From positions 1 to 21,662 of IMG/VR virus record IMGVR_UViG_3300025508_000176: 21,662 nucleotides of DNA; one strand, written 5' to 3'. This stretch comes from a virus. Of the stretch, positions 4,523 to 20,641 are shown piece after piece; the first letter of the stretch is position 1; the number at the start of each line of letters is the position of its first letter. Made by a program: the position numbers and the translations under genes. A model generated the notes under the pieces. It was not told where the DNA came from and did no database searches. It was given only the letters and a program-made list of their open reading frames with translations.

Positions 4523-4544
4523 AGGGGGATAACTTTATCCCCCT
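4523..4544 (+). terminator. Strong GC-rich hairpin, attenuator or terminator
   Basis: AGGGGGATAA (4523-4532) is the exact inverted repeat of TTATCCCCCT (4535-4544), giving a stem of at least eight pairs with a four-base loop. It sits ten bases after the stop of the gene at 4261. No T-run follows on either strand, so it may be a partial terminator or a 3'-end-stabilising hairpin that lets some transcription pass into the secreted cassette. Confidence 0.55.
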
Positions 4545-4589: not shown

Positions 4590-5525
4590 ATGTTGAAAGA
4601 AACTTTAAGAGCATATATAATAATGGGCTTGGCAGTATTTGCTGTTATGGGATTAGCTTTTGCTGAAGATAACACAAATGTAATCACAAATACAACGACA
4701 ACAACTTCTACTGTAAATTCAAACAACAGCAATACCAATGTTAATCAATCAACAAATAACAATACAAATTTAAACACGAACAACACAACGATAAATCAAA
4801 CAACTAATTCAACATCAACTAACAACAATACCTCAGTTAATACCAATACCAATAGCTCTACAAATAATTCTACGTCAAATGTTACTAGCAATATTACTCA
4901 AAGTGTTACAAGCAATATTAATCAATCAACAGACAACACCTCTTTAAATACAAATAATAATACCAATGTTTCGACCTCATCTAGTTCCTCAAGTGTTGAA
5001 ACTAAAAACGAAAATATTAATTCATCAGTAAATAATAACAATAATAATAATGTAAATAACAGTAACAGCAATTCTCGTCAGGTTGTAACACAACGTATTA
5101 AAGGACAAGTTAGTTCTGCTATTGCTCCCTCTATCAATTCATATAGTCAGTTAGTATGCACATCAGGTACTTCAACATCAGTACAAACAAATTTGTTTGG
5201 CATTGCAAGTGGCAGAAGTGTTATTGATACAAATTGCCAAAGGGTTTTATTAAGTCGTGAATTAGCATCACAAGGTATGAAGGTAGCCTCTGTATCACTT
5301 CTTTGCCAAGACAAAAGAGTATTTAAGGCAATGATGATGGCAGGCACTCCATGTCCTGTAAATGGATTAATTGGAGATGAGGCTAAAGCATATTGGATTT
5401 CTAATCCTGAGATACGACCTGATTGGGAAGATATAAAAAAAGAATACAAAAATTTAGATGCCAAGATATATAAGAAAAAAGATTTTTGTCGTAAATTTAA
5501 AAGTCATAAGTTGTGCTTAGACTAA
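4590..5525 (+). CDS. Secreted Asn/Thr/Ser-rich protein, 311 aa
   Basis: The N-terminus is a classic Sec signal peptide: M-L-K-E-T-L-R, a hydrophobic core (about 9-22), and A-F-A before E-D-N (cleavage about residue 24). A long low-complexity part follows (about 25-165) built almost wholly of Asn, Thr and Ser, ending in a run of seven Asn. The last 150 residues are ordinary sequence with four or more Cys (C-T-S-G, N-C-Q-R, L-L-C-Q-D, T-P-C-P, and F-C near the end), which could form disulphides outside the cytoplasm. An upstream in-frame TTG at 4566 was rejected because it would spoil the signal peptide. No family recognised. It overlaps the next gene by 13 bases. Confidence 0.75.
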   Translation: MLKETLRAYIIMGLAVFAVMGLAFAEDNTNVITNTTTTTSTVNSNNSNTNVNQSTNNNTNLNTNNTTINQTTNSTSTNNNTSVNTNTNSSTNNSTSNVTSNITQSVTSNINQSTDNTSLNTNNNTNVSTSSSSSSVETKNENINSSVNNNNNNNVNNSNSNSRQVVTQRIKGQVSSAIAPSINSYSQLVCTSGTSTSVQTNLFGIASGRSVIDTNCQRVLLSRELASQGMKVASVSLLCQDKRVFKAMMMAGTPCPVNGLIGDEAKAYWISNPEIRPDWEDIKKEYKNLDAKIYKKKDFCRKFKSHKLCLD

Positions 5526-7438
5526 TATTTTTATTATTATTTAGTGTTTCTGTTCAAGCTAACGATCCTACATTTACAGTCGGAACAGAAAATATCATAG
5601 ATATATCGACTACTGGAGTTGCTTTAAATCTTCAAGATGATGCTATGAGCGGAATGAAGCCTCTAGGGTTTGATTTTAATTACTACAACAACACTTATGA
5701 TGAAGTTAATATAGCTATGAATGGTTTTATGACATTTAATCCAAATTTTAATGTAACTGTTAGAAGAAATTACCTGTCAGAAACATTGCCTGCTACTGGT
5801 TTTAATTATAGTATTTTTGGATTGTGGACAGATTTAATTGATAAGAATAATAATAACGGAAGTCCTTACATTCAAACTTTTGGCGATACTGGTTCTAAAT
5901 ATTTTGTTACTGGTTGGTACAATATAAATGAATATAGAAATAATAATTTAAACTCTTTTGAAATTATATTGTATGAAAATACTAATGCTATAGAATTTAG
6001 ATACGATAAAATTAATATATCTAATCACGATATAACCATAGGACTGCAAGGGAACAATGAAGCTGTAACATATTTACGTTATGAAGATACTAATTCTACA
6101 AATTATACACGCACAGATAAATGGTCTATTAGCACAAAATTAGATGAGTCTTATTCTAATCTATCGTCAGAATGTCTTACAGACTCAAATTTTTCTGCTT
6201 TATGTAATGTTTACAATCTAGGAAATGATACAGAAGAAGATGATATATTTGATTTTATTGATGATTTAATTGAGAGCAATCAAGATTATGGCATTGAAGA
6301 AGATTTACATTTAGGTTTTACAACAGAAATTAATTACGAGACTGGCGAGGGCTTGGCAATAATTGATTACAGTATAGAAGATGTTTTTTTAGATAATGAA
6401 CTTTTAACAATTATAGAAGATGAGGAATTTCATAATGAAGATAATTTCGATTTTGAGTATGTTGATGATGATTATTTTGATACTATGGGTAATGACAATG
6501 AGACGTTAGAAATACTTGATATTACTAATGCTTTGCCTGAAATTTATCCTGAAGATAATTTTTTAGAAATAGCACAGATTATTAATATTGAGTTAGAAGA
6601 TAGAGAAGAAGAACAATTTTTTGAACAACCTAATGAAGAAGAAAATGTATTACAACAAGAAAGTATTGAAGAAGAAAGTCAAGAAGAAGAAGAACAAGAA
6701 GAAAGTCAACAAGAAAGTCAAATACTAGAAGAAGAAGTTTCTGAACTAGAAGAAGATATTGAGCCAGATAGACCTAGTAGACAAAGAAATATTGTGTCTA
6801 ATAATGTTGCCTCAACCAATTCTTATGTGCAAAACCTAACGTCTAATATTATAAGCCAGTCAAATAATTCATCACAAACATCAAGTGGTAATGCAATTTC
6901 TAGTAACAGTAGTTTTTCGCAATCTGGCATAAGCAATCAAATCTCTGCCGAGCAAACACAAACACAAAATGCTTTGCAGTCCGTTCAGACTATCGAAGTC
7001 AATCCTATTGGTAATGACGCAATGGGAGTTGCTATTGTGCAAGTACAGACTGTAACGACTGATAGTATAAGTAATGAAATTACATCAATTACAAATGAAA
7101 CAATGACATCATCTGAGGCAGACCAAGTTGTAGCAAGTGTGATCCAAAGTAACATGGAAAGTTTGCAAGAGGAGATAGAAGAAAATCAAAACGAAAGTGG
7201 TGAGTATGATGTGCAAGGACAATCGAATTTAATCGCTTTAATGAATTATAAACAAGGTTGGGGTAATTATTCTGCAATGAATATTCCAGACGTTGCTTTT
7301 TACGAACCTTATCAAATATATACAAATGTTGTTTTAAGTGATAATATTAATGCACATATATCAATGACAGAAGCCTCATCTATTGCTTTAAATAAAATGG
7401 TGAGCAGTCAGAATTTAGATTTATTTAGGAGATACTAA
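5513..7438 (+). CDS. Secreted NIDO-like acidic protein, 641 aa
   Basis: Starts at GTG (5513) with a signal peptide: M-L-R, hydrophobic L-I-F-L-L-L-F-S-V, then V-Q-A before N-D-P (cleavage about 17). Residues about 25-200 resemble NIDO-like beta domains of secreted bacterial proteins: G-F-D-F-N-Y-Y, N-G-F-M-T-F-N, the L-P-A-T-G-F turn, F-G-L-W-T-D-L, F-V-T-G-W-Y, F-E-I-I-L-Y-E-N and I-E-F-R-Y. The middle (about 235-425) is extremely acidic, including E/Q repeats. A Ser/Asn/Gln-rich stretch follows, then a C-terminal part with I-P-D-V-A-F-Y-E-P-Y-Q-I-Y that I recall in uncultured marine phages (unverified). It shares a 13-base overlap with the gene before and a TAATG with the gene after. Function unknown. 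Confidence 0.75.
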   Translation: MLRLIFLLLFSVSVQANDPTFTVGTENIIDISTTGVALNLQDDAMSGMKPLGFDFNYYNNTYDEVNIAMNGFMTFNPNFNVTVRRNYLSETLPATGFNYSIFGLWTDLIDKNNNNGSPYIQTFGDTGSKYFVTGWYNINEYRNNNLNSFEIILYENTNAIEFRYDKINISNHDITIGLQGNNEAVTYLRYEDTNSTNYTRTDKWSISTKLDESYSNLSSECLTDSNFSALCNVYNLGNDTEEDDIFDFIDDLIESNQDYGIEEDLHLGFTTEINYETGEGLAIIDYSIEDVFLDNELLTIIEDEEFHNEDNFDFEYVDDDYFDTMGNDNETLEILDITNALPEIYPEDNFLEIAQIINIELEDREEEQFFEQPNEEENVLQQESIEEESQEEEEQEESQQESQILEEEVSELEEDIEPDRPSRQRNIVSNNVASTNSYVQNLTSNIISQSNNSSQTSSGNAISSNSSFSQSGISNQISAEQTQTQNALQSVQTIEVNPIGNDAMGVAIVQVQTVTTDSISNEITSITNETMTSSEADQVVASVIQSNMESLQEEIEENQNESGEYDVQGQSNLIALMNYKQGWGNYSAMNIPDVAFYEPYQIYTNVVLSDNINAHISMTEASSIALNKMVSSQNLDLFRRY

Positions 7439-7689
7439 TGAAAAATTTAATGGATAATTTACAAAAGTATTTAGCAGTAATCGGTGTAATCGGTGCTGTT
7501 GGTGGTGGCTTCTGGAGTTTTGCAGTAGCTACAAGTGAAATAAATAATCGTTTAGATAACTTAGAAGCTGTTGAGATAACATCTGTTGATGTCTCGCCAC
7601 TAGAAACAAAGATAGCCATACTTGAAGAAAAGGTATCGAAGTTAGAAAAGGCTACCGATAATAGCCGCAACCCATTATTAGGTGGCTAA
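7438..7689 (+). CDS. Membrane protein with coiled coil, 83 aa
   Basis: A glycine-rich hydrophobic helix (about residues 11-33, A-V-I-G-V-I-G-A-V-G-G-G-F) follows a short polar start. The rest is a heptad-like acidic/basic segment (I-N-N-R-L-D-N-L-E, later K-I-A-I-L-E-E-K-V-S-K-L-E) typical of a coiled coil, ending N-P-L-L-G-G. The architecture fits small phage holin-like or spanin-like membrane proteins, but it is not specific. The ATG overlaps the previous stop (TAATG at 7436-7440), so it is made together with the two secreted proteins and may anchor or partner them. A bidirectional terminator follows about 75 bases downstream. Confidence 0.7.
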   Translation: MKNLMDNLQKYLAVIGVIGAVGGGFWSFAVATSEINNRLDNLEAVEITSVDVSPLETKIAILEEKVSKLEKATDNSRNPLLGG

Positions 7690-7766
7690 CACAATTTCGA
7701 CATAGTTCGACAACCACAAAAAAATCGTAAAATCTAGCTATTTTTATTAAATAAAATCAAAAAAAT

Positions 7767-7798
7767 AGTCCTCACCACAAAAGGGAGGACTTGTTTTT
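7767..7798 (+). terminator. Bidirectional intrinsic terminator
   Basis: AGTCCTC (7767-7773) pairs with GAGGACT (7785-7791), with two further CC/GG pairs inside past a bulged A. A T-rich tail (TTGTTTTT) follows on the plus strand. On the minus strand the same stem is followed by TATTTTTTT, so it should stop transcription from both sides. It ends the rightward secreted-protein unit. Confidence 0.85.
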
Positions 7799-8124: not shown

Positions 8125-8140
8125 GGGGAAAGGAAATAAA

Positions 8141-9058
8141 ATGGAACTTAAAAACAAATTAGAAGAATACAATATAAAACATTTTTCTGCCTCGCAGTTA
8201 AACATACCACTTAATCTATGGTGGTTTAAATATATAAAACTTACATCTGAAGAAAGAAAGAAAATTGAATTTGGTGTACCAGCTACAGCAGGAACAGCGA
8301 TCCATGAGTCACTTGATATGGCTTTGCAAGAAACAAATCCGAATACCTTTGAGTACGATCAAGAAACAATAGATTTAATATTTGATGAGATTGGTAACAA
8401 GATTGATGACCATGTTGCTGTAAACGAAAATGATGCACAAAAGATGATTGGCTGCAAAGAACACGCACCCATAACTGCACAAAAAATGCTTGATGTAACG
8501 ATTGATACTTTACAAGAAAGAAAAGGTGAAAATTCTACACCAACAAAACATAAGACATTTGTTGAAGCTAATTTTGAACAACAAATATTATGGCAACCAA
8601 AAGAACTATCTGTACCGATTATTGGCTACGCTGATATGTTAATTAATAATCCCAAAACCATAATCGAGTATAAAACCTTACAGCCACGTTTAGGTGCTGT
8701 GAAGAAAGATGGGAGTAGAGGTTTCAGCGTTGCCTCTATTCCCAAGATACCAAGATTAAATTATTTAGAACAAATTACTGTGTATTGGGAAGCTATGAAC
8801 AGAGAATATTATCCTATTATTATAGTAGGTAATAAAAACAAGGCGGTGGCTTTTCACCCAGATAACTGTGAAGAAATGTCCTTTGGCAATTTAGAGTTGT
8901 ACTCAAGGTCAATGATTAAAAAAGCAAGGCTAAGACAATCATTAATTATGCTTGATGACCCTATTAGTGTTTTAGATACTCCAGACTTTGTTGGTGATTT
9001 TTATTGGAACTTAGGTGATGAGTTAGAAAATAAGGCGAAAGAATTATGGCTAAAGTAG
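8141..9058 (+). CDS. RecB/Cas4-family PD-(D/E)XK exonuclease, 305 aa
   Basis: Carries the full active-site set of RecB-like exonucleases (PDDEXK_1/Cas4 superfamily): G-T-A-I-H-E (H55), G-Y-A-D-M-L (D165), I-I-E-Y-K-T (E176, K178), and the downstream Q-x-x-x-Y helix (Q211, Y215). An N-terminal S-x-S-Q-L is the usual start of the fold. The usual iron-sulphur cysteines of Cas4 are not evident, so this is more like phage RecB-type exonucleases. It resects DNA ends to give single strands for the Sak protein encoded downstream in the same operon. The start is at 8141 with AAAGGA upstream. It overlaps the next gene by 13 bases. Role assignment is strong; polarity is unknown. Confidence 0.85.
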   Translation: MELKNKLEEYNIKHFSASQLNIPLNLWWFKYIKLTSEERKKIEFGVPATAGTAIHESLDMALQETNPNTFEYDQETIDLIFDEIGNKIDDHVAVNENDAQKMIGCKEHAPITAQKMLDVTIDTLQERKGENSTPTKHKTFVEANFEQQILWQPKELSVPIIGYADMLINNPKTIIEYKTLQPRLGAVKKDGSRGFSVASIPKIPRLNYLEQITVYWEAMNREYYPIIIVGNKNKAVAFHPDNCEEMSFGNLELYSRSMIKKARLRQSLIMLDDPISVLDTPDFVGDFYWNLGDELENKAKELWLK

Positions 9059-10517: not shown

Positions 10518-10748
10518 ATGGAAGAAGATTTAGTTAATAATCCACCTCATTATCAAGGCGATAAGTTAGAGGCTTTAGACTCCATACGAGCCATGTTGGG
10601 AGTAAAAGGTTTTATTGCTTATTGTCTTGGTAATGCAAGTAAGTATGTGTGGAGATGTACTAAGAAAGGAAATTTTCAACAAGATTTGGAGAAAGCTAAA
10701 TTCTACATAGATAGGGCAATAGAAGAAAATGGAAAAATTAAGAAATAA
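10518..10748 (+). CDS. DUF3310 family phage nucleotide-kinase-like protein, 76 aa
   Basis: Matches the DUF3310 (SaV-like) pattern: V-N-N-P-P-H-Y-Q (6-13), then I-A-Y-C-L-G-N-A-S-K-Y-V-W-R and a final helix of alternating charge (D-L-E-K-A-K-F-Y-I-D-R-A). Sometimes annotated as nucleotide kinase, but no P-loop is present and the biochemical role is unsettled. The ATG follows the SSB stop with no gap. It overlaps the DnaA-like gene by 20 bases. Common in replication regions of many phages. Confidence 0.8.
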   Translation: MEEDLVNNPPHYQGDKLEALDSIRAMLGVKGFIAYCLGNASKYVWRCTKKGNFQQDLEKAKFYIDRAIEENGKIKK

Positions 10749-11022
10749 AAAATGTTTAGATAAAACAATAGAGCATATATGTGATGATTTCCAAATATCA
10801 TACATTGATTTAATATCACGCAGAAGGGTAAAAGAGCTGTCTATAGCAAGATGGTTAATATTTAATTTATTAAAAACAAACTCAATATTAAGTTTAGTTG
10901 AGATTGGCGATAAGTATGACAAAGACCATACAAGTGTTATTCATGGCATACGAGAGATACATTTAAGAAAGCCAGAACTTGTTAGTAAATATCAATCTGT
11001 TTATGAGGATTGTAAAAGATAA
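10729..11022 (+). CDS. Stand-alone DnaA domain IV protein, 97 aa
   Basis: Contains the DnaA C-terminal DNA-binding domain without the ATPase part. I-D-L-I-S-R-R-R-V-K-E-L-S-I-A-R-W (26-42) matches the conserved lead helix, L-V-E-I-G-D-K-Y is the turn, and D-H-T-S-V-I-H-G-I (66-74) is the signature of the DnaA-box recognition helix. In DnaA this domain binds the 9-bp DnaA box; here it may target a phage or host origin or compete with host DnaA. No perfect TTATCCACA box was noticed in this window, though I could not scan exhaustively. Encoded in the recombination operon, overlapping DUF3310 by 20 bases. Confidence 0.8.
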   Translation: MEKLRNKKCLDKTIEHICDDFQISYIDLISRRRVKELSIARWLIFNLLKTNSILSLVEIGDKYDKDHTSVIHGIREIHLRKPELVSKYQSVYEDCKR

Positions 11023-11023
11023 A

Positions 11024-11827
11024 ATGAATGTTTTAAGTTTATTTGATGGTATGAGCTGTGGTCAATTAGCATTAAACAAAGCTAATATTAAATATGATAA
11101 TTACTATGCAAGTGAAATAGATAAATATGCGATAGATATTGCACGAAAAAATTATCCAAACACTATTCATCTTGGCGACATACAAAATGTAAAAGGTGAA
11201 AATTTTATTTATGACATTGATTTAATTTTTGGCGGCTCACCTTGTCAGTCTTTTAGTTTTGCTGGTAAAGAACAAAATTTTAACGACCCAAGAGGTAAAT
11301 TATTTTATGAATTTGCACGATTGTTAAAAGAGTTAAAACCAAAATATTTTTTACTTGAAAATGTCAGAATGAAACAAGAGTATCAAGATGTTATTTCTAA
11401 AACATTGTCTGATATTTACCCAGAAACACAGTTAGGTAATTTATTTGGTATTGAACCTTATGCAATAAATTCTGACTTATTTGTTCATCAAAATAGACCA
11501 AGATTATATTGGACAAATATACCAATACCAACATTACCAAAAAGACCAAATTGGAAAAAATTATATTTTCAATGGAGAAGAAGTTATTTTAGAGAAAATA
11601 AAAGCGGTGTTTGCCCAACTTTAACTGCAAATATGGGTACTGGCGGTCATAATGTTCCATTAAAATCAAAAAATAAAGAAAATAGAGTTAGTATTAATGA
11701 ATTAGAACAATTACAAACAATTCCCATTGATTATACAAAAGGTGTTTCTAACACACAAAGATATAAGATGATTGGAAATGGGTGGACTGTTGATGTGATT
11801 GCACATATATTAAAGGGTATAATATAA
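11024..11827 (+). CDS. DNA cytosine-C5 methyltransferase, DNMT3-like, 267 aa
   Basis: All main motifs are visible: motif I F-D-G-M-S-C-G (7-13), motif IV G-G-S-P-C-Q-S (70-76, catalytic C74), motif VI L-E-N-V (111-114), motif VIII Q-N-R-P-R (156-160), and motif X G-N-G-W-T-V (251-256). The order and L-S-L-F-D-G-M-S-C-G-Q-L style resemble the DNMT3-like phage methyltransferases. The target-recognition part between VIII and X is short (about 90 aa), so its site cannot be predicted. No partner endonuclease is seen, so it probably protects phage DNA. The start is 11024; an in-frame upstream start would overlap the DnaA-like gene. The stop directly abuts the stop of the leftward gene. Confidence 0.85.
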   Translation: MNVLSLFDGMSCGQLALNKANIKYDNYYASEIDKYAIDIARKNYPNTIHLGDIQNVKGENFIYDIDLIFGGSPCQSFSFAGKEQNFNDPRGKLFYEFARLLKELKPKYFLLENVRMKQEYQDVISKTLSDIYPETQLGNLFGIEPYAINSDLFVHQNRPRLYWTNIPIPTLPKRPNWKKLYFQWRRSYFRENKSGVCPTLTANMGTGGHNVPLKSKNKENRVSINELEQLQTIPIDYTKGVSNTQRYKMIGNGWTVDVIAHILKGII

Positions 11828-12391
11828 TTATTTCCAAGAGTCGCCTGATAACCAAGACACAATAGAATGTCTTACACCTTTCTTGACAGGAAAAACTTTA
11901 TGTAAAAGAAAAGATGGAAAACAAACTATATCGCCTTTCTTTCTTGGTATAAAAAAATCATTCTTATTATCAACGTCAATTTTTAGATCACCGCCATAAT
12001 ATTTATCATCATCTGTTAGTTGAATAATTGTAGTAATTTTTCTGTTTGGTCTTTTAGAGTTTAAGTTTTGCCAGTTAATGTCCATGTGACTATCATATTT
12101 GCCACCTTTTTTATATGTCAAGAACTGAAGTGGCTCGGCAAAGCCTTTTATATCAAAGTTCCAATACTTATCATTAACAGTCTGCGTAAAACTAGAAACA
12201 ATTTCAGCAACAAATTCTAATTCTTTATTGTTAGCTTCAAAGGCTTTTACATCAACACTTCTATAAGATTTATTATCGCCACCTGTCAGGCTTCCGTCTT
12301 GGGAGGGTATTTTTTTTATTTTCTCTAAGACAGTAAAAATTTGAGTGTCACTCAATGCTCGCTGCATATGGCAAACTTGTGGGATTTCCAT
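11828..12391 (-). CDS. 2OG-Fe(II) oxygenase, PiuC/prolyl-hydroxylase-like, 187 aa
   Basis: Double-stranded beta-helix dioxygenase of the 2-oxoglutarate/Fe(II) family. Iron ligands H102 and D104 in Y-D-S-H-M-D-I, H164 in L-L-H-K-V, and the 2OG-binding R174 in V-R-H-S-I-V-S-W are all present, with a G-G-D-L turn at 133-136. Such enzymes (e.g. Fe(II)-dependent prolyl/other hydroxylases) occur in many marine phages; the target here is unknown, maybe a host or phage protein. It is the last gene of the leftward structural/lysis cluster and overlaps the lipoprotein stop as TAATG. No clear ribosome site precedes the ATG at 12391, suggesting translational coupling. Confidence 0.85.
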   Translation of the reverse strand: MEIPQVCHMQRALSDTQIFTVLEKIKKIPSQDGSLTGGDNKSYRSVDVKAFEANNKELEFVAEIVSSFTQTVNDKYWNFDIKGFAEPLQFLTYKKGGKYDSHMDINWQNLNSKRPNRKITTIIQLTDDDKYYGGDLKIDVDNKNDFFIPRKKGDIVCFPSFLLHKVFPVKKGVRHSIVSWLSGDSWK

Positions 12392-12559: not shown

Positions 12560-12727
12560 TCACGAGTTGAGTTTATTTACAAGATAATGTTGAACGCTGT
12601 CTGGAACAGGAGCTGTGCCTTTTATCATTCCGTTAATAGTTATCTTAGCAACGCCACATTGTTGCATCAATTCTGTCTTTGATGTTCCAGTTTTTACTAT
12701 TAGTTTGCAAAATACCTTATGATCCAT
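12560..12727 (-). CDS. Small Xre-like HTH protein, 55 aa
   Basis: A compact helix-turn-helix: V-K-T-G-T-S-K-T-E-L-M-Q-Q-C-G-V (11-26) gives helix 2 and the turn, A-K-I-T-I-N-G-M-I-K-G (27-37) the recognition helix, and V-P-D-S-V-Q-H-Y-L-V-N-K-L a closing helix. The spacing fits a minimal Cro-like fold. It starts with an 11-base overlap with the holin stop and precedes the lipoprotein. A regulator lodged between lysis genes may time late expression or be a small antirepressor. No similarity to the HTH at 3745 beyond the fold. Function is inferred from the motif alone. Confidence 0.65.
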   Translation of the reverse strand: MDHKVFCKLIVKTGTSKTELMQQCGVAKITINGMIKGTAPVPDSVQHYLVNKLNS

Positions 12728-13178
12728 TTCTTTTCATCATTCTATTGCCAAACCAAAAAGCAATAATTGCTGAAAACATACTTTGTGTTTCAATATCCCA
12801 TGCAGCTACTACACCTTCTAATGGGTCGTCACCTTGCTGTATGGCTATATAAACCTGTGTAACTTTAACAAAGGCAAACACAGAGAATAATAAATAAGTA
12901 ATAACTGGGCGTACTGATGCTTGTAATGCACCTATAAATTTAGAGGAATTGTTTTTGGAAAGTTGCTCGGCATGAGCATAAATAGCTTTTGCTTCGGCTA
13001 TGTCAGCTTCTGCGTCTAGCTCTTGTATTTTATACTTAGACATTTGTTCGGCATATTTTGCCTTTGCCTCAAGCATAAGTAAGTCTTGTTTAAATTTGGC
13101 TTTCTTTTCAAAGAAACCTAAAACGCTTGGCATGAAAGAAGTTCCAAAACCAAGTAAACTACCTAATAGACTAATCAT
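12717..13178 (-). CDS. GTA-type holin, 153 aa
   Basis: Matches the gene-transfer-agent three-TM holin style: N-terminal hydrophobic L-L-G-S-L-L-G-F-G (about 3-22), then a long charged coiled coil (K-Q-D-L-L-M-L-E-A-K-A-K-Y, about 30-75), then L-Q-A-S-V-R-P-V-I-T-Y with a membrane helix (about 85-112), a W-D-I-E-T-Q-S-M-F-S-A-I-I-A-F-W-F-G-N-R end (about 126-145) and a basic tail. The R-P-x-x-T-Y and W-x-x-x-x-F-x-x-I-x-A-F-W-F-G-x-R landmarks are typical of the family. Holins open the inner membrane for lysis. It overlaps both neighbours by a few bases (ATGA with the gene before). No endolysin was seen in this window. Confidence 0.75.
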   Translation of the reverse strand: MISLLGSLLGFGTSFMPSVLGFFEKKAKFKQDLLMLEAKAKYAEQMSKYKIQELDAEADIAEAKAIYAHAEQLSKNNSSKFIGALQASVRPVITYLLFSVFAFVKVTQVYIAIQQGDDPLEGVVAAWDIETQSMFSAIIAFWFGNRMMKRNGS

Positions 13179-14200: not shown

Positions 14201-17200
14201 TTATACTACTCTTACTTTTAAGTTATTAGAGGCAAGTGATGTTATTCTCACCTTGTTTTGAGCAGGAGCATCAAAATCATAGTCAGTGCCTAAGATTGCT
14301 CCTTTGTTTAATACATTAGCATCATAGTTAATAGATACACCATCACTAGAAGGAATTGTAGTGCCACTAGATAAATTAAAGATAATCCCTAAATCTAAGT
14401 CATTAGCTAATGCGAAGTGGTTAGCATCTGCTACAGCTTCTAACTGAGTTTTATTCATTCTATTTACAGAAGTACCCATAGACTCTTGTAAAGTGGCTAG
14501 TTCAGTATTAGTTGCACCATTAGCCCAAGTTTCTGAACCATAAGTACCATTAGAGTTATATTGCCAAGTGCCTGAGTTATTACGGACAATAGACCTTATA
14601 CCATTAGTGTTATGTGCAATTTTCCAAATAGCTCTATCATCAGTAGATACACAATAATAAATATTTCCACTTCCTGAAGCTTCATCAGCAGTCATAGAAT
14701 TAATATCAGTCCAATAAGTAGAGTCGGTAGAGTTTGTGGTGTGTACTGCATTATAACCTGATGGAACTGATATGGCTGTTGCACTTCCTAATGCGTATTC
14801 ATTTACTTTAACACTACCTCTGCCAATAATAAACATTTTAGTACCAACAGCATTAAAAGCAAGACCTTTTGGGCTACCATCTTGTGATTGAACACTAAAT
14901 GCTGTACCAGAATAACTTGCACTAGAAACATTAAACCCTGTAGTTAAATTATATAAGTGTACTGAATAAGTAGATTGACCTCCAAGAATAAACATTTTAG
15001 TTCCATTTGTGTTAAAAGCTATTGATTCTACCTGTGTGGTTTGAGATGATACATCAAAGTTTCTTGTGTAACTTGCAGTGGTAACATCAAACCCTGTGGA
15101 AAGTGCATATTCGTTTACATCATCTCCATCATTACCAACAATAAACATCTTAGTTCCGTCAGTATTAAAGGCAATACCTTTTGGTTGCGATTCTTGAGAA
15201 CTTAAAGCAAAGTCATCTCTATAAGAAACACTAGATAAATCAAACCCTGTAGATAATGTGTATTCACTTACATCATTATTACCACCGCTATCAATAATAT
15301 ACATCTTAGTTCCGTCTGCGTTAAAAGTAACATCTTCTGGGTTACCTGCTTGACCAAATACAGAAAAATTCCTTGTGTAACTTGCAGTAGAAGCATCAAA
15401 AGCAGTAGATAAAGCGTACTCATTTACGTCATCACCATTATTACCACAAATAAACATTTTAGTACCATCAGTGTTAAATGCTATTCCTTGTGGTTGCGAT
15501 TCTTGTGAAGATACATCAAAATCATCTGTGTGAGAAGCCTGAGATAAATCAAAAGTTTGATCTATACCAGATAACTCTAAATCACCATCAGTTGTATTGT
15601 ATATAACAGCATGCATTGTCCAAGAACCTGAAGCTACTTGAGCGTAAGACGTAGGAGCATTGGCTTGACTAAAAGTACCACTAGTAGCTGTAAGAATAAA
15701 TTTACCACTATTAGCTTCAATAGTTTTACCTACATCAGCAGATGCAAATGAGCCTGAACCAAGAGCAACTGCTGTTGGTGTAATTGTATATTCATATACA
15801 TTATCTGAAAAACCAACAACATACATTTTAGTTCCATCATTATTAAAAGCTACAGCAAATGGATGTGCTTCTTGTGAATTTACGGAAAAGTTTGTTGAAT
15901 AAGAAGCAGTAGAAACATCAAACCCTGTGCTAAGATTATATTCATTAATATCACTACCACCACCACCAACAATAAACATTTTAGTTCCGTCACTATTAAA
16001 ACTTATTCCTCTTGGTTGGGTATCTTCTGAGGATACATCAAAAGCATCTGTGTAAGAAGCTGTAGATAAGTCAAACCCTGTAGATAAAGCATATTCACTT
16101 ACATCATCACCTGAATAATCAACAATAAACATCTTAGTACCATCATTGTTAAATGCCATGCCTTGTACAGATGCTGCTTGTGAGGATACATCAAAATTTC
16201 GTGTGTAAGAAGCCGTTGATACATTAAATCCTGTTGATAACGCATATTCATTTACGTCATCACCATCATATCCACAAACGAACATCTTAGTTCCGTCAGA
16301 GTTAAAGGCAATACCTGATGGGTCTATTTCTTGAGAAGATATATCAAAAGCTCTTGTATAAGAAGCTGTAGAAACATCAAAGGCAGTAGATAAAGCGTAT
16401 TCGTTTACATCATCTCCTGTATTTCCACACATAAACATCTTAGTTCCGTCATCGTTAAAAGTTAATCCTGTTGGAGAATTTTCTTGTGAAGATACAGAAA
16501 AACTTTGAGAGTAAGTTACACCACCACCAATACCCCCACTAGGATTTGTAAAACTTAAAGTAGTTGAGTATGCTGAATTTAAACGTGTATAGTTTTCATC
16601 AGTTGAGTTAATATCCCAATTATTATTAGTTTGACCTGATTGTGCAACTTCTTTGGTTACAGATACTACTGGTGCAACAACATTGTCAGATAAACTTATC
16701 GTAGATTGTTCATTTGTTAAAAATGTTTTGGTTAAAGTAGCTTCGGCTGATGCTATATTTGTTAATTGTGAACCATCTACGGCAGGTAGCTTGGCAGAGC
16801 CATCTAATTGCACAACATTACTAGCAGATGTACCTGCAGTTAATGTTGCGGCACTACCTAATCCTAAATTTGTTCTAGCTGTACTTGCACTTGCTAAATC
16901 TGATAAATTTGATGCTTTTGCAGCAGCATTATCGGCTTTCGTTCCTTGTGCTGAAGTAGCATAATCAGTAGAAGCTGTTGTAGCAGCAGTTCCTAATCCT
17001 AAATTTGTTCTTGATGTTCCAGCATTTGCAACATCTGATAAATTGTTAGCACCACTTAAAAATCCACTTGCTGTAAAGGCAGCTTGTGTCCATGCAGAAC
17101 CACTCCAAATAAATAATTGATTTGATGATGTATTAAAATATAAAGCACCAGTAAGAAGTGCGTCACCATCATTATCAACTGTTGGTGCTGAACCTTTTGC

Positions 17201-18490
17201 ACCTAAATATCTGTCGTCAAAACTATCATAAGATGCAGCAGCAGATGTAGCACTTGCAGCCGAAGCTGTGGCAGAAGTTGCACTAGCAGTTGCAGAAGTT
17301 GCTGCGGCAGTTTGAGAAGTTGAAGCAGCAGAAGCTGATGTTGCGGCAGCAGTTGCTGAACCTAATATACCATCAACATAGCCTTTTGTTGTTGCGTCAC
17401 CTGTAGCTGTTGGTGTGTCCAATCCTGTAACTTTATTGCTACCCATAGCAAGGTTGCCAGACAATGTACCACCACTTAGATTAAGTTTTAGTGCGTCAGC
17501 AGTATCTACATAAGTTTTTGTTGTAGCGTCATTTGCACTTGATGGTGCTTTTAGTCCACTAACAGTATTAGAATTAGCGTCTATATCGCCTGTCATAGTA
17601 CCACCTGCAAGTGGTAATTTAGCAGCTATTGAATTTGTTACAGTTGTTGAAAAACTAGCGTCATCACCTAATGCTGCAGCTAATTCATTTAATGTGTTTA
17701 ATGCTGTAGGTGCGGAGTCAACTAATCCTGATACTTCGGTGTCAACATAGCCTTTTGTAGCTGCATCTGTAGAACCAGAGGGCGTGGCAAGTCCTGTAAT
17801 TGTTTGTGAAGTCGTACTATCCATATCTAATGTGCCATTTATGGTCACATTGTTAAATGTTGATGTACCACTTGTTGCTGTAACATTACCATCTATTGCA
17901 CCAACAAACTTAGTATTGGCAGTTATTGTTGTTCCTGTAACTGCAGCAGGGGTTGTACCACCTACGACACCATCTACTGTGCCAGTTACATTGCCTGTAA
18001 GATTACCTGCAAAATTTGTATTAGCTGTAATAACTGTGCCTGTAATAGCTGCAGGAGTATTTGCACCTATAACGCCATCTATATTACCACCTGATATTGT
18101 TACAGTAGAACCTAAGTTAGCAGTAGACGAAGCTGATAAAGTAGAAAAAGCTCCTGTGCTTGCACTAGAACCACCAATAGGTGTTCCGTCTATTGTTCCA
18201 CCATTAATGTCTGCTTTAGTTATAGTAACAGCTCCTGTTCCGTTAGGAGTAAGGTTTAGGTCACCATTAGTATCTAAAGTAACAATAGTGTTACCATCAA
18301 GGTGTAAATTGTCTATTTTAAGGGTAGATAATGCTTCATTGCCTAAATTAAGATCGGCAAGTTGTGACATAAGTTCACGAATAGCATTATTAATGTTAGA
18401 TGGTGCTGTACCTTCAGCAATACTAATACTATTTAGGTCAGTATTATTTGATGCAGTTGCATCAAACTGTGATATTTTCGTCTTTGCCAT
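14201..18490 (-). CDS. Tail fibre with ten-blade beta-propeller repeats, 1429 aa
   Basis: Domains in order: an N-terminal attachment-type region (1-50, A-P-S-N-I-N-N-A-I-R-E-L); Thr/Gly-rich beta repeats (50-235); A-T-K-G-Y-V-D repeats (235-375); an Ala/Ser coil (378-420); Y-L-G-A-K-G and N-L-G-L-G-x-A-A repeats to about 600; then ten propeller-like repeats of about 51 aa (663-1235), each with A-F-N-x-D-G-T-K-M-F and N-E-Y-A-L-S-T; and a C-terminal domain (1236-1429). A 66-aa insertion (912-977) splits blade five, separating its last 12 residues, which follow the insert. Ser/Thr/Gly/Asn rich throughout, as in fibrous phage host-binding proteins. AGGAGT-type site before the ATG; three bases after the upstream stop. 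Very likely host recognition. Confidence 0.85.
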   Translation of the reverse strand: MAKTKISQFDATASNNTDLNSISIAEGTAPSNINNAIRELMSQLADLNLGNEALSTLKIDNLHLDGNTIVTLDTNGDLNLTPNGTGAVTITKADINGGTIDGTPIGGSSASTGAFSTLSASSTANLGSTVTISGGNIDGVIGANTPAAITGTVITANTNFAGNLTGNVTGTVDGVVGGTTPAAVTGTTITANTKFVGAIDGNVTATSGTSTFNNVTINGTLDMDSTTSQTITGLATPSGSTDAATKGYVDTEVSGLVDSAPTALNTLNELAAALGDDASFSTTVTNSIAAKLPLAGGTMTGDIDANSNTVSGLKAPSSANDATTKTYVDTADALKLNLSGGTLSGNLAMGSNKVTGLDTPTATGDATTKGYVDGILGSATAAATSASAASTSQTAAATSATASATSATASAASATSAAASYDSFDDRYLGAKGSAPTVDNDGDALLTGALYFNTSSNQLFIWSGSAWTQAAFTASGFLSGANNLSDVANAGTSRTNLGLGTAATTASTDYATSAQGTKADNAAAKASNLSDLASASTARTNLGLGSAATLTAGTSASNVVQLDGSAKLPAVDGSQLTNIASAEATLTKTFLTNEQSTISLSDNVVAPVVSVTKEVAQSGQTNNNWDINSTDENYTRLNSAYSTTLSFTNPSGGIGGGVTYSQSFSVSSQENSPTGLTFNDDGTKMFMCGNTGDDVNEYALSTAFDVSTASYTRAFDISSQEIDPSGIAFNSDGTKMFVCGYDGDDVNEYALSTGFNVSTASYTRNFDVSSQAASVQGMAFNNDGTKMFIVDYSGDDVSEYALSTGFDLSTASYTDAFDVSSEDTQPRGISFNSDGTKMFIVGGGGSDINEYNLSTGFDVSTASYSTNFSVNSQEAHPFAVAFNNDGTKMYVVGFSDNVYEYTITPTAVALGSGSFASADVGKTIEANSGKFILTATSGTFSQANAPTSYAQVASGSWTMHAVIYNTTDGDLELSGIDQTFDLSQASHTDDFDVSSQESQPQGIAFNTDGTKMFICGNNGDDVNEYALSTAFDASTASYTRNFSVFGQAGNPEDVTFNADGTKMYIIDSGGNNDVSEYTLSTGFDLSSVSYRDDFALSSQESQPKGIAFNTDGTKMFIVGNDGDDVNEYALSTGFDVTTASYTRNFDVSSQTTQVESIAFNTNGTKMFILGGQSTYSVHLYNLTTGFNVSSASYSGTAFSVQSQDGSPKGLAFNAVGTKMFIIGRGSVKVNEYALGSATAISVPSGYNAVHTTNSTDSTYWTDINSMTADEASGSGNIYYCVSTDDRAIWKIAHNTNGIRSIVRNNSGTWQYNSNGTYGSETWANGATNTELATLQESMGTSVNRMNKTQLEAVADANHFALANDLDLGIIFNLSSGTTIPSSDGVSINYDANVLNKGAILGTDYDFDAPAQNKVRITSLASNNLKVRVV
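14786..15523 (-). repeat. Tandem 153-base propeller repeats, block 2
   Basis: Five in-frame repeats (blades 6-10) of 51-52 codons, the last truncated to 40, inside the tail fibre gene. The core A-F-N-x-D-G-T-K-M-F and N-E-Y-A-L-S-T are kept while the loops between them vary. Repeat copies are similar enough at DNA level to recombine. Confidence 0.8.
15758..16504 (-). repeat. Tandem 153-base propeller repeats, block 1
   Basis: Blades 1-5 of the tail fibre: four full units of 51 codons and a fifth whose end is displaced by the 66-codon insertion at 15560-15757. Blades 1 and 6 are especially alike, consistent with duplication of a five-blade array. Confidence 0.8.
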
Positions 18491-18493
18491 GTT

Positions 18494-20641
18494 TTACTCC
18501 TGATTATCCGTTATTGCCTGTGCTGTTGGTACAGTTGCAACAGGCGTTAAAGCTGATGGTGGTATTTTTGCTTCAAATCTTTTATTTAATCTTTCTAAAA
18601 TTTGATTAATTCGTGTTGTTAAAATTTTTCTATATTGTTCGCCTTTTTTTGTTTTTTTAGCGGCTTGTGCTAATAGTGGTTTTATTGCTGGTTGAGCAAG
18701 TATATAAGATATACCATAAACTACACCCACACCACCTACAGCAGCAGCTAATCCACCAGTAGCTCCAGCTACACCCAATGCTCCAACAACAGCCATTGGA
18801 TTTACACCACTTGCAAATCGTAAAAACAAACTTCTTGTTACAAAAGTGTTCATAGAAGATAAGTCAGGGGTAATAGCTAAAAGATTTATGAAACCTTCTA
18901 AATCATCTGGTGTAACATCACTTAATTCTAATATTTTTTTTGTTTTTAAATATTTTGCACTTTTTGATAAATTCGAATCTAAAAAACCTAATTCACCTAA
19001 TACATTTTTTGCATCAAAACCAACTTTTAAAACTGTTTTACCGCCTACATTTTCATAAAGATGTTTATGAAAAGTTTGGTCAATATACATATCTCCTAAT
19101 GCTTTAAATCTTTCATCTCCTATAATTTTGCGTAAATCATCTAAAGCATCAATATCATTTTGTTTACCAAATGCTTTATTATATAAACCAGTTAATTTAG
19201 AATTTTTTGCAAAAACATTTTCTTTGCCGACTGTCGATCTTAAACCTTTGCCTACTGCTTGGCTTATTAAACCAGACTCATAACCTGTGATAGTTTGCAT
19301 AAATGTTGCAAATTCATCATTTGCTTTTTCTCTTAAATCTATTGCTTTTTTAAAATCTATATCATTAGCGTATTTTGAGTTTTTACCAAAATATGACTTT
19401 TCAATTAAATTTTGTATGTTTCTTGAAATACCATAACTAGGAACTAAACTAGCATCAGCAACAGCATTTGGATTATATGGATTTAAAGTTTTTGAAAATT
19501 GTTTTAATTGAAACATAATATCTTCAACTTCTTGAAATGTAAAATTTTTACTAGGAGATTTGTTTATAAAATCTAATTGTCTATTAAGATATTTACCAAA
19601 TTCATCATTTAATTGTGTTTGTGGGGGTAAGCCTCGAAATGTTTTTTTACCAGACTCATATACTGCTGGTAATTCTTTTTCTATTGCTTCTTTTAAGATA
19701 TTTGCATCATATTCATATTTAGTGCCTTGCATAATTTTATCAGCAGATTTATAAATAGCATTTATTCTTTTATCTTCATTTTCAAAAAATTGTTTACCAT
19801 ATAAAGCAATTTGTTGACTTGCTTCTAATTCATTTAATTCTTCTTTTGGTGAAAAAGTGTATCTTGCCACATCTTGAACTTCATCTCTTAAATCTGCAGC
19901 AGCTACTTGTATTGGTCTACCTGCCAATGGAACACGCCCTAATGAACTTGTTACTGCTTGTGTAACACCACCTTGAGCTGCCATTCCTATAGGTATACCT
20001 TTAGGTTCTTTTCCCATTTCTCTTAATTGTTTTGATATAAAACCTTGATAAGTTTTTCCAGCAGAAGATGCTTCTGGACTTAAACCCACAATTTTACCGC
20101 CTAAAGTTTTAACTGGATCTTCTAAATCATCAGCAGTTTTTTGTATTGTTTGTTTTATTTTATCTTTACCTTTTGTAAAACCTCTACCAATTTTATCTTT
20201 AACAGGTTTTACAGCTTTACCAATTAAAGGAGATGCACCTTGTAAAGCTACTCCAAAAGCAGAAACTAAAGCACCTTCAAAAACCGCATCTTTTGTTTGC
20301 TGTCTATTTGTTGGTGATGGTATATTAGGATAAATTATATCTCCTAATTCATCTATAGCTCTTGATGTTGCTCCTGTTGCTGCACCTGCTATTGCTTGAC
20401 CAGCATAAGGATTTTTTGTTACAGCAGTACCTAATACAAAAGAACCAACACCAGCGATTACTTCTGCTGGAACTTCAAAGAAAGGTGATATTTTTGTAGG
20501 AAATTCATTTTTATCAATAATGCCTAATTTAATAGCTTTTTGACGAACCATATCATTTCTTTCTTTCATGCTTAATTCACCAGCAGCTACTAATCTATCA
20601 CCATCTTGTTTATATTGTTCAATTTCCTTTCTTACACTCAT
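18494..20641 (-). CDS. Internal virion / DNA-ejection-type protein, 715 aa
   Basis: Large protein with no enzyme motif. A helical Lys/Glu-rich start (1-50) leads to a Gly/Ala-rich hydrophobic segment (about 57-95, V-I-A-G-V-G-S-F-V-L-G), then long charged helical stretches (about 100-610) and a second Ala/Gly hydrophobic segment (about 614-650, V-V-G-A-L-G-V-A-G-A-T-G-G-L). A Lys/Arg-rich tail and a Pro/Thr end follow. Two amphipathic or membrane-compatible segments plus long coils fit internal (ejection) proteins of podo-like phages that form a channel in the host envelope. Assignment rests on architecture and position only. Start overlaps the upstream stop as TAATG at 20641; three bases precede the tail fibre. 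Confidence 0.55.
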   Translation of the reverse strand: MSVRKEIEQYKQDGDRLVAAGELSMKERNDMVRQKAIKLGIIDKNEFPTKISPFFEVPAEVIAGVGSFVLGTAVTKNPYAGQAIAGAATGATSRAIDELGDIIYPNIPSPTNRQQTKDAVFEGALVSAFGVALQGASPLIGKAVKPVKDKIGRGFTKGKDKIKQTIQKTADDLEDPVKTLGGKIVGLSPEASSAGKTYQGFISKQLREMGKEPKGIPIGMAAQGGVTQAVTSSLGRVPLAGRPIQVAAADLRDEVQDVARYTFSPKEELNELEASQQIALYGKQFFENEDKRINAIYKSADKIMQGTKYEYDANILKEAIEKELPAVYESGKKTFRGLPPQTQLNDEFGKYLNRQLDFINKSPSKNFTFQEVEDIMFQLKQFSKTLNPYNPNAVADASLVPSYGISRNIQNLIEKSYFGKNSKYANDIDFKKAIDLREKANDEFATFMQTITGYESGLISQAVGKGLRSTVGKENVFAKNSKLTGLYNKAFGKQNDIDALDDLRKIIGDERFKALGDMYIDQTFHKHLYENVGGKTVLKVGFDAKNVLGELGFLDSNLSKSAKYLKTKKILELSDVTPDDLEGFINLLAITPDLSSMNTFVTRSLFLRFASGVNPMAVVGALGVAGATGGLAAAVGGVGVVYGISYILAQPAIKPLLAQAAKKTKKGEQYRKILTTRINQILERLNKRFEAKIPPSALTPVATVPTAQAITDNQE

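Follow-up and report, generated by a model that had tools for sequence, protein, structure and literature searches.

A conserved three-gene cassette of SAR11 and Roseobacter phages with a predicted exported adhesin and an exchangeable head

Introduction

What might a phage do with three tightly coupled genes, two of which are predicted to encode exported proteins and the third a small membrane protein? The question is raised by IMG/VR record IMGVR_UViG_3300025508_000176, analysed here over its positions 1 to 21,662 (the window), a 21.7-kb fragment. SAR11 is the likely host, since the exonuclease of the window links it distantly to the pelagiphages HTVC028P and HTVC106P. Pelagiphages rank among the ocean's most abundant viruses. 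Existing annotation either leaves all three products hypothetical or casts the unit as a host-recognition protein of the virion, and a search confined to the open literature gave no description of the three genes, here g1, g2 and g3, as a system.

Results

Layout of the cassette and its surroundings

The three genes overlap and all lie on the + strand. Their features, together with the flanking elements, are as follows.

4523..4544, + strand: stable RNA hairpin 5' of g1 (-15 kcal/mol, z -3.7), without a U-tract
4590..5525, + strand: g1, 311 aa, predicted exported Asn-rich protein with a 4-Cys domain (by homology)
4590..4664, + strand: g1 signal peptide, predicted cleavage between AFA and ED (sequence; heuristic)
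4665..5078, + strand: Asn/Thr/Ser tract of g1 with N-x-N alternation (composition, shuffles; AF2 pLDDT ~30)
5118..5402, + strand: conserved phage-specific 4-Cys domain of g1, ~95 aa (4-Cys signature in 104/109 homologues)
5513..7438, + strand: g2, 641 aa, predicted exported modular adhesin with a GTG start, 13 bases shared with g1
5513..5560, + strand: g2 signal peptide, predicted cleavage between VQA and ND (sequence; heuristic)
5567..6127, + strand: g2 N-terminal RemA/NIDO-like beta domain, hypervariable and exchanged (model pLDDT mostly 88-96; profile; identity comparisons)
6128..6781, + strand: g2 acidic tether, mostly disordered and fast-evolving (structure model; identity comparisons)
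6779..7435, + strand: g2 conserved C-terminal helical region
7438..7689, + strand: g3, 83 aa, one membrane helix (~7468-7527) and a coiled coil (sequence)
7669..7677, + strand: C-terminal NPL motif of g3
7761..7798, both strands: bidirectional intrinsic terminator 3' of g3 (folds on both strands, U-runs, z -4.3 and -3.7)

The 13-base overlap of g1 and g2 lies at 5513-5525 and the TAATG junction of g2 and g3 at 7436-7440, in agreement with a sequence-only reading of the window, which had also described the unit as flanked by a strong hairpin and a bidirectional terminator and as separate from the particle and the recombination genes. The separation is confirmed: the particle genes lie on the other strand from the cassette, and the terminator stands between the cassette and the exonuclease, Sak and SSB genes. 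As to the flanks, the strong hairpin is real and the bidirectional terminator is a fair call; the hairpin was rejected as a T-run terminator and its role in termination is doubtful, because the U-tract is absent. An Rfam search of the window returned no match.

Comparison with relatives marks the gap between g3 and the exonuclease as an insertion hot spot. A 272-aa DNA-modification gene of the Mom family (Pfam Mom, 2.6e-42) is found directly 3' of g3 in close relatives (L017 4448-5266, L097 3541-4359, L098 5858-6676; corresponding window site 7688-7695), and a relative-specific ORF of 155-160 aa lies between g3 and the exonuclease (L100 2574-3041, L113 1193-1675; window site ~8137-8146), its L113 copy having no Pfam match. 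Elsewhere in the window we observed a 1429-aa putative tail fibre (14201-18490, - strand), propeller-like, with several repeats of the type SSQESQPQGIAFNTDGTKMFICGNDGDDVNEYALSTGFDVSTASYT and a weak Kelch match (1e-4); a particle protein (18494-20641) with no relative in the phage collection; a C5-cytosine DNA methylase (10979-11827, +) adjoining a convergent 2OG-Fe(II) oxygenase (11828-12391, -), possibly as a base-modification pair; a 97-aa protein (10729-11022, +) that comprises the C-terminal DNA-binding domain of DnaA only (Bac_DnaA_C, 1.2e-13); and, far from the cassette, a 3-TM holin-like protein (12717-13178, -; phrog_6637, and weakly the holin phrog_3427). No endolysin was recognised in the scanned parts of the window.

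Conservation and spread

A tblastn search with g1 matched 11 phage records at low identity, six of which are cultured pelagiphages (HTVC202P, HTVC023P, HTVC115P, HTVC033P, Baldr and the myovirus Mosig). In all six, g1 is followed by an exported-type protein of 442-611 aa and then by a short protein with membrane and coiled-coil segments; HTVC023P and Baldr have one small additional ORF. Both podo- and myovirus pelagiphages carry the unit. In the Roseobacter phages CRP-810 and CRP-207, g2 is shorter and unrelated and g3 ends in NPL. The g3 of these two phages (L008 5219-5641 and L010 3292-3873), with its membrane helix, coiled coil and NPL end, carries a lysozyme annotation that is probably wrong.

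Over a wider collection, g2 and g3 follow in order at 82 of the 115 g1 loci (70 of the 82 nonredundant), and 27 of the 33 loci without a called g3 end less than 2 kb after g1; these sets include related phages and the counts are not independent. The g1 profile matched at least 599 stretches in IMG/VR, and the count of the g1 domain in viral contigs is at least 598. In 257 Gb of prokaryote contigs the g1 domain was found at just 11 loci, several of them on short MAG-binned contigs, and g1 is therefore essentially a phage family. Many of the carriers are otherwise unrelated viruses of abundant ocean bacteria. The g1-g2-g3 unit is one conserved module, and its ordered recurrence elsewhere, on which the earlier view of a cassette depended, holds in the six cultured pelagiphages as well as at the 82 loci.

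Export-type N-termini and the g1 protein

Signal peptides, which had been claimed for two of the proteins, were called by a home-made heuristic that combines simple hydropathy with a cleavage-site rule. The claim is borne out among 5'-complete homologues, where signal-peptide-like N-termini are present in 104 of 109 g1 and 100 of 102 g2, compared with 64 of 380 other ORFs of at least 200 aa, which were scored under a slightly stricter position limit. Export of g1 and g2 is predicted on this basis. Our search for an outer-membrane translocation route found none, with no CsgG, no T9SS signal and only scarce lipobox-like motifs (0 of 108 g1, 7 of 102 g2).

g1 matches PHROG 20531, of unknown function, with an E-value of 5.7e-11. 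Asn, Thr and Ser make up 110 of the 140 residues from 24 to 163 in the g1 of the window, which fits the stretch of about 140 such residues described in the sequence-only reading, and N-x-N pairs number 25 against 14.8 expected, a count reached by 1 of 5000 shuffles. The length of the tract ranges from 0 to 499 aa among g1 homologues, with a median of 170. In the model of the 4-Cys domain, a beta-hairpin of low confidence precedes four helices of high confidence. The g1 profile found nothing among PDB sequences at E up to 10, and Foldseek and VIA-align searches with the models of g1 and full g2, which are limited by long disordered parts, gave nothing convincing (Z of at most 4.3, which means little).

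The head of g2 and its exchange

The g2 of the window, taken alone, had no match in Pfam. A profile of the g2 N-domain made from 12 relatives matched the chain labelled as RemA in PDB 8gl6 with E=4.4e-11, residues 23-178 of the profile aligning with RemA residues 51-204. This significant profile similarity, which runs across the domain, places it with RemA-type N-terminal adhesin domains and establishes, at the level of profile comparison, homology to the N-domain of RemA, a surface adhesin and lectin that serves gliding in Flavobacterium johnsoniae. The domain had been described as NIDO-like from the letters alone, which was good recognition, as single relatives match Pfam NIDO (PF06119) weakly with a best E of 0.0013, but the curated cut-off of 25 bits was not reached and the window protein had no match. 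A structural match to the g2 N-domain is not to be expected, because the RemA-related substrate in the PDB structure is well resolved only in its C-terminal domain (PMC10994853).

A T9SS substrate was also considered for g2 and rejected, since no T9SS C-terminal signal (CHU_C or similar) was found by Pfam in the window protein or among the families present in 51 homologues. A separate 634-kb phage record, LR745206.1 (L012 4788-6984), encodes a 732-aa RemA-like adhesin with an SprB repeat and CHU_C, a T9SS signal, and is apparently built for the secretion system of a Bacteroidota host; it is an independent example of a surface adhesin encoded by a phage and suggests another way in which phages could display a RemA-like domain.

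In 78 of 83 homologues the g2 C-terminus belongs to a single family. The N-terminal parts fall into seven groups, the main ones being RemA-like (63) and 'NGNFETG' carbohydrate-binding-like (13), and at least four unrelated N-domain types are joined to the one C-terminal family. Among close relatives of the window the head is 52-73% identical, the C-terminus 84-86% and the exonuclease 78-87%. In one relative, L100, identity to the window is mostly 94-100% across g3, the exonuclease and g2 outside the head, but falls to 60-75% within the head, an allelic replacement with a breakpoint near 5935-6085. Mosaic g2 pairs occur in both directions (N 92%/C 39%; N 49%/C 98%). These identity comparisons demonstrate that recombination swaps the predicted adhesin head while the C-terminus is conserved.

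The g3 protein

The sequence of g3 fits an N-in helix in the inner membrane with a periplasmic coiled coil. The NPL end is present in 75 of 78 g3 (those recognised by profile alone) and in 17 of 2733 other ORFs, 10 of which directly follow a g2. Weak, nonspecific matches to Rz-like spanin and hemolysin PHROGs were obtained with some g3.

Discussion

In light of these data, we consider it possible, short of probable, that g1-g2-g3 forms an exported, envelope-anchored complex that displays a hypervariable adhesin at the surface of infected cells and probably masks host receptors. g1 and g2 would be exported through Sec, and g3 would remain anchored N-in in the inner membrane, its coiled coil reaching into the periplasm and its conserved NPL tail probably docking on g1 or on the C-terminus of g2. 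The acidic part of g2 would tether the N-terminal adhesin domain and hold it outside the cell, and g1, with its disulphide-closed domain and Asn-ladder stalk, would be the likely outer-membrane or fibre part. Since the head is exchanged between phages as receptor-binding domains are, the simplest candidate for its ligand is a glycan or protein of the cell surface that varies. By masking receptors late in infection and once the cell has lysed, the head would keep off rival phages and would also keep progeny from being lost to the infected cell and its debris. We infer surface exposure, late timing, the ligand and the masking role, and a single complex of the three proteins only from the linkage of their genes; identity correlations among g1, g2 and g3 singled out no partner pair. 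More doubtful is a trans-envelope display machine by which interchangeable heads reach the surface of the infected cell without a known outer-membrane secretion system, with the g3 coil and NPL tail in the inner membrane, the disulphide-closed hairpins of g1 as an outer-membrane port or fibre and g2 threaded through, spread over distinct SAR11 and Roseobacter phage families.

A role as lysis accessory, in which an i-spanin- or XhlA-like g3 together with g1 and g2 would break or remodel the outer envelope or tune the holin at lysis, is suggested by the neighbourhood of the unit and appears unlikely. A holin, spanin or endolysin homologue is encoded within 3.5 kb in 24 of 33 nonredundant loci with enough flank, and an endolysin in 17 of the 33, counts taken without a formal control set. 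Phage genomes run to tens of kb and have a single site for an endolysin. Several loci have a 2-TM holin-like protein directly 5' of g1, HTVC023P has an M15 peptidase directly 3' of g3, and the Rz-like spanin and hemolysin matches of some g3 point the same way. However, complete overlapping i-spanin/o-spanin pairs with a lipobox, followed by a GH24 lysozyme, stand directly 3' of g3 in several loci, and separate pairs with a GH24 lysozyme are encoded beside the unit in nine (L023, L027, L028, L030, L033, L040, L049, L054, L087). The cassette lacks a lipobox, coiled coils match many PHROGs nonspecifically, and exchangeable adhesin domains are not needed by lysis proteins. The unit is away from the lysis end in HTVC202P (terminase), Mosig (primase) and the window, which has no lysis gene nearby, its holin-like protein being at 12717-13178. 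In many lineages the module accompanies the late lysis end of the genome without replacing the lysis proteins, and it is unlikely to be a lysis machine because complete separate holin/spanin/endolysin sets adjoin it. Frequent holin adjacency and the topology of the proteins also agree with a lysis-inhibition sensor, whose outer adhesin domain would sense superinfecting virions and signal through g3 to the neighbouring holin; the unit of the window is distant from its holin, and we regard such a sensor as very improbable.

The adhesin domain could alternatively serve on the particle, g2 being the host-recognition protein of the virion. Tail-fibre genes are frequent upstream neighbours of the unit, and the g2 of the S28-C10 cassette is annotated as 'putative carbohydrate binding domain', the most frequent identifiable gene in hypervariable metaviromic islands, where it was proposed as a receptor-binding protein (PMC3909814). 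Parts assembled in the cytoplasm would not be expected to have Sec-type N-termini, as g1 and g2 do, or to be coupled to a membrane protein, however, and in the window the unit and the particle genes are on different strands; we judge this role improbable, and g2 is probably not a virion receptor-binding protein. We give similarly little credence to a role in binding other cells or particles (sibling capture), which has been proposed for unrelated pelagiphage curli clusters (PMC7029224, PMC9599517) and with which the RemA homology of g2 and the Asn-ladder tract of g1 would agree, but no clumping was seen with Melnitz, an OM43 myophage that carries csgGF (PMC9004378), and CsgG was found, with positive controls, in none of 33 cassette-bearing records, several of them fragmentary and all of them other than the window record.

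Regarding the earlier interpretation, the cassette is real, with two export-type products and a bacterial surface-adhesin domain on g2, and exclusion of competitors and envelope modification remain live; the surface layer that it also offered has no support beyond the Asn-ladder of g1. Head exchange, presence in cultured pelagiphages and frequent placement among lysis genes go beyond it. The module is common in pelagiphages, given the number of viral stretches that match the g1 profile. If an exported surface complex is the true reading, part of the hypervariable 'host recognition' signal of marine phages would reflect display on the infected cell and not virion attachment, and the cultured pelagiphage carriers make that reading testable.

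Comparison with known systems

The pelagiphage T8SS/curli cluster (CsgF, CsgG, CsgA/B, FecR and adenylate cyclase) is likewise a phage-encoded multi-gene exported surface module common to SAR11 podo- and myoviruses, but it has no sequence relation to the cassette. The curli-bearing 50 kb of HTVC008M contain neither g1 nor g3, and the curli proteins of that phage are unrelated; together with the CsgG result this led us to reject identity with curli/T8SS. Two-component spanins (Rz/Rz1) and XhlA-type lysis proteins have a topology that the g3 sequence would fit, an N-in membrane helix and periplasmic coiled coil, whereas the cassette has no o-spanin lipobox and true spanin pairs are encoded separately next door; the unit was rejected as a two-component spanin pair on these grounds. 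The metaviromic-island proteins share their annotation with one cassette g2 and are hypervariable among near-identical marine phages, but they were read as virion receptor-binding proteins (PMC3909814), whereas the cassette g2 is predicted to be exported and is coupled to g1 and g3. RemA shares with g2 a homologous N-terminal beta domain of ~155 residues on an exported surface protein; unlike RemA, g2 has no T9SS C-terminal domain and is accompanied in the phage by g1 and g3. The unit may be a new variant among phage-encoded surface proteins, and possibly a wholly new display system.
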